Virus record (IMG/VR): IMGVR_UViG_3300037961_004308
Location: 470-25,357 of that record
Reading direction: 5' to 3' (one strand)
DNA: 24,888 bases
Origin: a virus
A program made the translations under genes and the position numbers. The notes beneath the pieces are model-generated. The model saw only the letters and a program-made list of their open reading frames with translations. It had not been told where the DNA came from and searched no databases. Positions 293 to 1,179 of this stretch are shown here, piece after piece (positions within the stretch are counted from its first letter, which is position 1; every line of letters begins with the position of its first letter).

Positions 293-300
293 TATAAATA
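293..300 (+). promoter_or_regulatory. T4-type late promoter motif TATAAATA
   Basis: The octamer is an exact match to the T4 late consensus TATAAATA, which in T4 is read by the gp55/gp33-modified host polymerase. It lies 69 bases upstream of the 58-aa gene and 13 bases upstream of the sigma-70 -35 box, so that gene may be served in both early and late phases. TTGACA at 265-270 is 22 bases away, too far to form a sigma-70 promoter with it. Confidence 0.45.
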
Positions 301-312
301 TCCAATGGAAGA

Positions 313-341
313 TTGACAATATCCCCAGTCCATTCTATACT
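313..341 (+). promoter_or_regulatory. Strong sigma-70 promoter P1 (TTGACA-17-TATACT)
   Basis: The -35 box TTGACA (313-318) is perfect, the spacer is 17 bases and the -10 box is TATACT (336-341). Transcription should start near 348, giving a leader of about 20 bases before the ATG at 369. Inverted arms AATGGA (304-309) and TCCATT (329-334) flank the -35 box, and the right arm ends one base before the -10 box. This is expected to be an early promoter read by unmodified host polymerase. Confidence 0.8.
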
Positions 342-368
342 TACTAAGTCACACCCACGGAGTCAATC

Positions 369-545
369 ATGTCAGTCGCTATCAGTCAGGCACAGAAGCA
401 ACGTTACAGAATCACGCTGGATCTTGAAGTGATGGAAGATTTTGACCCGCATCAGATTGATTGGGAGAACCTCTTCGAGCTGGAGGGAAATGAGCGACTG
501 ATTGATAGTTACGTAGAGGACTTAAGTGTACCTATGCGGTGGTGA
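369..545 (+). CDS. Small hypothetical protein, 58 aa
   Basis: A 58-residue soluble acidic protein reading MSVAISQAQKQRY..., ending in VPMRW. A GGAG ribosome site (359-362) lies six bases before the ATG. The middle section (FDPHQIDWENLFELEG) has the look of small cyanophage hypotheticals with a 'DFNPHDIDWE.LF.LE' core that I recall, but I cannot name a function. There is no signal peptide, membrane segment or metal motif. It is expressed from a near-consensus host promoter with a very short leader, which suggests an early host-interaction gene. Its codons are richer in G and C than those of the structural genes downstream, which may mean recent transfer. The frame, ribosome site and promoter all agree, so the gene is very probably real although short. 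Confidence 0.8.
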   Translation: MSVAISQAQKQRYRITLDLEVMEDFDPHQIDWENLFELEGNERLIDSYVEDLSVPMRW

Positions 546-592
546 CAAAGTATAGAGAAATTGTGCCAGTCAGCGAACTGGTCTACTAGCAG

Positions 593-620
593 TTGATCTG
601 GGGTCGTTCTGCTGTATTCT
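593..620 (+). promoter_or_regulatory. Probable sigma-70 promoter P2 (TTGATC-16-TATTCT)
   Basis: TTGATC (593-598) and TATTCT (615-620) are separated by 16 bases. The predicted start near 627 leaves an 18-base leader before the ATG at 645, close to the leader length of P1. AGCAG (588-592) and CTGCT (609-613) form inverted arms around the -35 box, with the right arm ending one base before the -10 box as in P1 and P3. The boxes are weaker than in the other promoters. A small CCAGT/ACTGG hairpin at 566-581 lies just upstream. Confidence 0.5.
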
Positions 621-644
621 ATAAGAGTCAAAGCAAGGCACCCC

Positions 645-965
645 ATGACCGTCACCACCATCACCGTTGACCTGACCCAGCCAGTCAAGCAACAATGGGA
701 GGGGATCCAACAGCAGATCGACGCACTGAATGCAGAAATCCACCGCACCGACCTGATCAAGGCGATCCGCATTCTCTGCGCTGAGGCAGTCGGATGCACC
801 TCCACTGGTCGCGACATGTTCCCCGCTGTTGTTGCCGCTGCCACCTCTGGAACCCTGGCAGGCGTTAAGGCAATCTCAGGTCACACGGGCGGACACTCCT
901 ACGTAGCTGCAGAGCACCGCGCTGAACTGCGGACCCTGACCGCTGAACTCTACGCGCTGTCCTGA
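645..965 (+). CDS. GC-rich hypothetical protein, 106 aa
   Basis: A 106-residue protein starting MTVTTITVDL. AAGG (635-638) lies six bases before the ATG. Residues 10-35 (QPVKQQWEGIQQQIDALNAE) look helical and could form a short coiled coil. The middle is rich in Ala, Gly and Thr, and the end (AEHRAELRTLTAEL) is helical again. I do not recognise the family. The gene is about 60% GC with many GC-ending codons, unlike the AT-rich structural genes and closer to a marine Synechococcus chromosome, so acquisition from a host is a reasonable inference. It stands alone between two promoters. The antisense frame across the same DNA looks like a by-product of the GC-rich codon pattern and has no ribosome site. 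Confidence 0.75.
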   Translation: MTVTTITVDLTQPVKQQWEGIQQQIDALNAEIHRTDLIKAIRILCAEAVGCTSTGRDMFPAVVAAATSGTLAGVKAISGHTGGHSYVAAEHRAELRTLTAELYALS

Positions 966-983
966 TTTCTCTTTACTTAGTAG

Positions 984-1013
984 CACGGAGGTTGACATCA
1001 GTTTGCCTCCGTG
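984..1013. repeat. Perfect 8-bp inverted repeat spanning a -35 box
   Basis: CACGGAGG (984-991) and CCTCCGTG (1006-1013) are perfect complements separated by 14 bases that contain the TTGACA of promoter P3. The arm centres are 22 bases apart, about two helical turns, as in many dimer operators. As RNA it would form a strong hairpin behind the 106-aa gene, but no T-tract follows, so a terminator is less likely. Confidence 0.75.
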
Positions 1014-1020
1014 ATATTAT
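992..1020 (+). promoter_or_regulatory. Strong sigma-70 promoter P3 (TTGACA-17-TATTAT)
   Basis: TTGACA (992-997), a 17-base spacer and TATTAT (1015-1020). The start near 1027 would give a 168-base leader to the gene at 1195. The -35 box sits inside the loop of an 8-bp inverted repeat, whose right arm ends one base before the -10 box. Confidence 0.75.
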
Positions 1021-1071
1021 AGAGGAGAGCATCAGTGAAATGACAGTTATTATGCGGCGTTCGTTTATATC

Positions 1072-1100: not shown

Positions 1101-1179
1101 TCCCTGTAACCTACAGAGGTGACAGATCGACCTCGATATATAATGCGAAAGTTGATTTCATTTACAGAAAAAAAATCCC

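Follow-up and report, generated by a model that had tools for sequence, protein, structure and literature searches.

A Conserved Hairpin of Changing Sequence Around the −35 Box of an Early Promoter in a T4-Like Cyanophage

Why should an inverted repeat surround the −35 box of an early phage promoter, and how many promoters of one locus carry such a repeat as a conserved element? The window analyzed here—24,888 nucleotides of a 37,462-base fragment (IMGVR_UViG_3300037961_004308)—derives from a T4-like cyanomyovirus (Kyanoviridae) whose DNA is closest, among named phages, to that of S-SM2 and Bellamy, both Synechococcus phages (78–82% identity over the first 3 kb). The region of interest runs from a late box through promoter P1, orfA (369–545), P2, orfB (645–965), P3, orfC (1195–1413), and P4 to orfD; the fragment holds three consensus TTGACA/TATNNT promoters—P1, P3, and P4. 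Five proteins of the region were scanned. Pfam returned a family for none of the five; in PHROGs, orfA, orfC, and orfD matched entries without firm function, the fifth protein matched a ferredoxin family, and orfB matched no family.

A sequence-only reading of this region had proposed that P1, P2, and P3 each place the −35 hexamer in the loop of an inverted repeat whose right arm stops one base before the −10 hexamer. The arms and hexamers that it listed are all present. When each promoter's own flanks were shuffled, the exact placement and arm length arose with P = 0.001 (P1), 0.005 (P2), and 3 × 10−5 (P3), and with P = 0.005, 0.03, and 2 × 10−4, respectively, when small offsets were allowed. 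Because the rule had been derived from these same examples, the P3 value alone is persuasive, and conservation was taken as the main test. Under that test the three promoters are not equivalent: P3 alone is conserved, and the repeats at P1 and P2 stay at chance level.

At P1 (304–341, plus strand; TTGACA 313–318, TATACT 336–341), the arms occupy 304–309 and 329–334. Across 62 distinct orthologues aligned on TTGACAATA, all six pairs were kept in one, and Watson–Crick paired cells were about as numerous at the proposed register (149) as at a register slid by three (144). Mean pairing energy in the P1 family, as in the P4 family, was no better than with its own spacers permuted. We therefore reject the P1 arms as a conserved element; judged from these alignments, they are a local accident. 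P2 (588–620, plus strand), a weak putative promoter of orfB, matches the consensus at 8 of 12 positions (TTGATC/TATTCT), and its RNA fold is borderline (z −1.9). The sole orthologue found, on contig 3300021958_000251 (L129/L085), reads TTGACG...CATACT and lacks the arms, and the P2 arms were likewise rejected. Both promoters lie outside the element described below.

Neither of two weaker cases offered alongside these promoters held up. For GGGA/TCCC (261–291), the supposed −10 box, TATAAATA (293–300, plus strand), is not a −10 because it is a T4-type late box, a motif reported in cyanomyoviruses as NATAAATA (PMC2984593). The late box lies directly upstream of P1, an arrangement that spans 293–341 in the window, is kept in relatives, and agrees with the joint early and late promoters suggested for cyanomyovirus middle genes (PMC2984593). 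An ATCAGT...(A)CTGAT inverted repeat surrounds the late box in 17 of 38 late-box contexts upstream of P1 orthologues (L005–L164) and is lost in the window.

The second case, GAGGT/ACCTC (1116–1134), belongs to a conserved leader element, GAGGTGACA...TATATAAT (1116–1144, plus strand). In relatives its GAGGTGACA portion never varies, but the right arm reads CGAGA, ACTTA, CGTTC, or GCATG, so the arms do not covary. The longer leader, CTAACCTACAGAGGTGACA(A/G)(A/T)TCG...GATATATAA, is nearly invariant upstream of orfC in the window (1105–1144) and in all relatives; it is single-copy wherever it occurs and extends even to S-SCSM1. Of 13 genomes searched, only the nearest four contain the motif CTACAGAGGTGACA, each of them once and ahead of orfC. 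At the far end of orfC, the stop codon falls within the P4 −35 box TTGACA (1410–1415), and the end of regA in P-SSM2 shows the same overlap.

Pairing around the P3 −35 box is conserved while its arms change

P3 is a sigma70-like early promoter, TTGACA-17-TATTAT with an extended −10 TGn, that matches the consensus at 11 of 12 positions. Its left arm, CACGGAGG (984–991, plus strand), begins ~19 nt after the orfB stop codon and directly abuts the −35 box TTGACA (992–997), which lies within the hairpin; the right arm, CCTCCGTG (1006–1013), forms eight of eight pairs with the left and ends in TG one base before the −10 hexamer TATTAT (1015–1020). The whole composite of hairpin and promoter (976–1022, plus strand) folds as RNA at −21.5 kcal/mol (z −6.4), a value equalled by no shuffle. 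No T-run follows the right arm in the window, where ATATTATAG comes next, or in the relatives listed; P3 thus lacks the stem immediately followed by T-run of an intrinsic terminator.

We located the promoter upstream of CTACAGAGGTGACA in 88 distinct relatives. Most of them fold a hairpin around the −35 box, and they do so from unrelated arm pairs: CACGGAGG/CCTCCGTG in this phage, and CACGGGG/CCCCGTG, CACTGC/GCAGTG, GGGGCAG/CTGCCCC, GGCGGG/CCCGCC, or GCGGG/CCCGC elsewhere. Mean pairing energy of the family was −12.3, compared with −6.8 after shuffling and −9.8 after permutation within the family, the latter control being conservative because relatives share arms. The earlier proposal that placement rather than sequence is conserved is thus borne out at P3, where the −35 box stays inside the hairpin as the arms turn over. 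Comparison of relatives for compensatory arm changes gave a positive answer here, pairing being kept with different letters, and a negative one at P1, in the single P2 orthologue, and at 1116–1134.

The exact spacing is another matter. Between the right arm and the −10 box lie mostly 0–1 bases in the main type and 7–10 in the GGGGCAG, GGCGGG, and GCGGG types; because this distance differs by type, the one-base gap is not the conserved trait. Right arms of the main type end in GTG; the extended −10 motif TGn would then set them one base short of the −10 box and probably accounts for the gap.

The hairpin adjoins a variable slot. Between orfA and the P3 −35 box lie 10 to 887 nt whose contents differ between phages; in this phage orfB (plus strand, 106 aa) fills the slot, and the conserved gene downstream of P3 is orfC (plus strand, 72 aa; PHROG 2626). 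With a gap above 15 nt, 57 of 68 contexts carry the hairpin; with a gap of 10 nt, none of six does. Those six are among the relatives that lack a strong hairpin, as are four forms in which a direct repeat (CTCTGCGTGRTG or TCTCCGTGRTRT) flanks the −35 box in place of the inverted one (L034, L050, L053, and L065; gap >30 nt) and a group with TTTACA at the P3 position. Of the two nearest named phages, S-SM2 has the P3 hairpin and Bellamy does not.

In the TTTACA group (L013, L051, L109, and L137), which has no hairpin around the −35 box, an inverted repeat of a G-run and a C-run lies just upstream. In some of its members the −10 box is also closely followed by a GAACRAT...GTTC repeat.

Hairpins around −35 boxes exceed expectation across cyanophage genomes

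Sigma-70-like promoters were scanned against controls in four related genomes and in 13 cyanophage genomes, and an excess of inverted repeats around the −35 box was found in both. Perfect arms of at least 6 bp surrounded the −35 box in 7 of 77 consensus promoters of the four genomes, with 1.2 expected. Strong hairpins (−10 kcal/mol or lower) did so in 17 of 157 intergenic early promoters of the 13 genomes, with 4.2–4.6 expected; among genic look-alikes, 5 of 85 reached the same energy, with 2.4–2.9 expected. The fixed one-base gap to the −10 box does not generalize: none of the 77 promoters combined it with perfect arms of at least 4 bp (1.35 expected).

A count that assumes no promoter gives a similar picture. 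Among intergenic hairpins with stems of at least 7 bp, two loop hexamers share first place, TTGACA (pooled with its complement) and CTTCGG, at 14 each, and 6 of the 14 TTGACA loops are followed at the right distance by a −10 box matching at five or six positions. Hairpin centers cluster from about −8 to +15 relative to the −35 box.

Complete intrinsic terminators make up about four of the genomic cases; in these the hairpin encloses the −35 box, and the T-run falls within the promoter spacer. S-SM2 and Bellamy carry AGGAACCC-TTGACA-GGGTTCCT-TTTTT...TATAAT, and similar overlaps occur in P-SSM2, S-SCSM1, and S-B05. An association between hairpins and spacer T-runs, sought genome-wide, was not significant, which indicates that terminators account for only part of the class. 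A related arrangement appears in W02, W04, W09, and W12 (e.g., W09:166989), where an apparently orthologous promoter reads GGGTAACTGG...CCAGTTGACACCCC-TTTTTT; there the −35 box seems to lie over the 3′ arm of the terminator, not in its loop.

The initial description of the locus is thus partly supported: it picked out a genuine feature of P3 and of the genomic class to which P3 belongs, over-generalized from P1 and P2, and chose the less likely mechanism.

A candidate role in RNA and its alternatives

We lean toward the view that P3 is a composite of hairpin and early promoter that works in read-through RNA, ending or stabilizing the upstream transcript while restarting transcription for orfC. 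Under this proposal, a sigma70-type (host) early promoter of orfC would be overlaid on a strong hairpin that encloses its −35 box and starts just past the upstream gene's stop codon. The hairpin would most likely act in nascent plus-strand RNA reading through from the P1 or P2 units, where it may end that transcript or stabilize its 3′ end, and the same DNA would then restart transcription for orfC.

That the hairpin works as RNA is suggested by how its pairing decays. Among 51 type-I relatives, 77 of 103 non-Watson–Crick cells at P3 are G·T or T·G, spread over all eight pairs, and A·C occurs once, although the G·T excess partly reflects one change inherited by many sequences and a G-rich left arm. 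The preference favors RNA, since these mismatches become G·U pairs in the plus-strand transcript. The start of the hairpin soon after the upstream stop codon, as in terminators and 3′ stabilizers, also favors an RNA role. Termination or 3′-end protection is itself a putative function; P3 being free of a T-run, termination there would not necessarily be efficient. Polymerase can remain on DNA after termination and restart nearby, in that work mostly in the reverse direction (PMC6978322), which makes a stop-and-restart layout conceivable.

A wider proposal, which we regard as doubtful, is that early promoters with the −35 box in a hairpin lacking a T-run form a class that senses read-through: the fold of the nascent RNA would set the firing of the downstream promoter, with pairing conserved and sequence free.

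The repeat might instead be the double-stranded operator of a dimeric regulator, from phage or host, that either blocks polymerase at the −35 box or assists it, with operator and regulator changing together among phages. The arms do flank the −35 box, the classic position for a repressor; in the main type (CACGG.../...CCGTG), which predominates among P3 relatives, the arm centers lie 22 bp apart, or about two helical turns. However, the spacing falls to 18 bp in the GGGGCAG type and 16 bp in the GGCGGG type, neither a whole number of turns, and at least five unrelated arm pairs occupy the orthologous promoter, so that the arm sequence shared by relatives that a single-regulator palindromic operator implies is not seen. 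These unrelated pairs, together with the genome-wide excess, argue against one sequence-specific repressor, as had been suggested from the sequence. A strand-asymmetric tolerance of G·T is also unexpected of a dimer site, and the hairpin is missing where the upstream stop codon is close. We consider the operator unlikely.

We give less credence still to the hairpin being mainly a recombination boundary for swapping upstream genes, with no direct role in transcription. P3 does close the variable slot. Yet the two arm types scanned in IMG/VR yielded no mobile cassette: 61 of 65 matches lay at the locus by exact leader match, and of the other four, three read as that locus and one was cut by a contig end, so that all matches with readable flanks were orthologous. 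With both scanned types confined to the P3 locus, recombination would have no repeated copies to act on.

Extrusion of the repeat as a DNA cruciform or single-strand hairpin, gating polymerase or read by a phage protein, was the mechanism first proposed, with phage N4 as a distant parallel. The perfect 8-bp arms in this phage and the conservation of pairing independent of sequence would suit it. Many relatives, however, carry one or two G·T mismatches that are C·A on the other strand, several genomic examples are ordinary intrinsic terminators, and sigma70 requires duplex DNA to recognize the −35 box; we judge extrusion very unlikely. Chance—short arms picked after the fact beside promoters—suits P1, P2, and both weak cases, and is the least credible account of P3 and of the class, being excluded at P3 by conservation with arm turnover and genome-wide by the excess over permuted controls.

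The composite hairpin-and-promoter reading suggests a recurring compact layout in cyanophages: a single short segment would end or protect one transcript and also start the following one. Should this be borne out, the layout would help explain how small genes of variable blocks can be swapped while being separately expressed. The promoters found here also provide a concrete list for asking whether hairpins without T-runs end transcription in cyanobacteria.

Comparison with known systems

In phage N4, the phage's own virion RNA polymerase works on single-stranded hairpins whose loop is tiny. P3 resembles the early promoters of N4 in having a hairpin at a promoter; it differs in carrying normal sigma70 hexamers, both −35 and −10, and is not of the N4 type. 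In cyanomyoviruses, early transcription is believed to rely on the unmodified polymerase of the host (PMC2984593).

Closer parallels lie in the terminators that overlap early promoters in S-SM2, Bellamy, P-SSM2, S-SCSM1, and S-B05. As at P3, the −35 box TTGACA sits in the hairpin and the promoter serves the next gene; unlike P3, these sites have a T-run in the promoter spacer. In RB49, about eight promoters have a 17-bp spacer that is itself a stem-loop, TTGACA-GGGGATCGGTGATCCCC-TATAAT (e.g., GGGGATC...GATCCCC), and these are presumably the published promoter-early stem-loops (PeSLs). There the stem-loop fills the spacer, whereas the P3 hairpin surrounds the −35 box.

Going by the titles and by their use in PMC4503421, which cites them, the PeSLs described from T4-like phages (Arbiol 2010; Comeau 2014, "Composite conserved promoter-terminator motifs") combine promoter with terminator and serve in the shuffling of genes. 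P3 differs from them in having no intrinsic-terminator T-run, in being, for the two arm types scanned, single-copy rather than one of several near-identical shuffling-site copies per genome, and in having arms that change among relatives. It shares with them a sigma70-type early promoter overlaid on a stem-loop (8-bp stem, z −6.4) and a place, in a T4-like phage, beside a variable (hyperplastic) block of genes. Comparing P3 as known from its sequence with PeSLs as known by description, the best reading is that P3 is a PeSL-like variant—one that would work like a PeSL without being classed as one.
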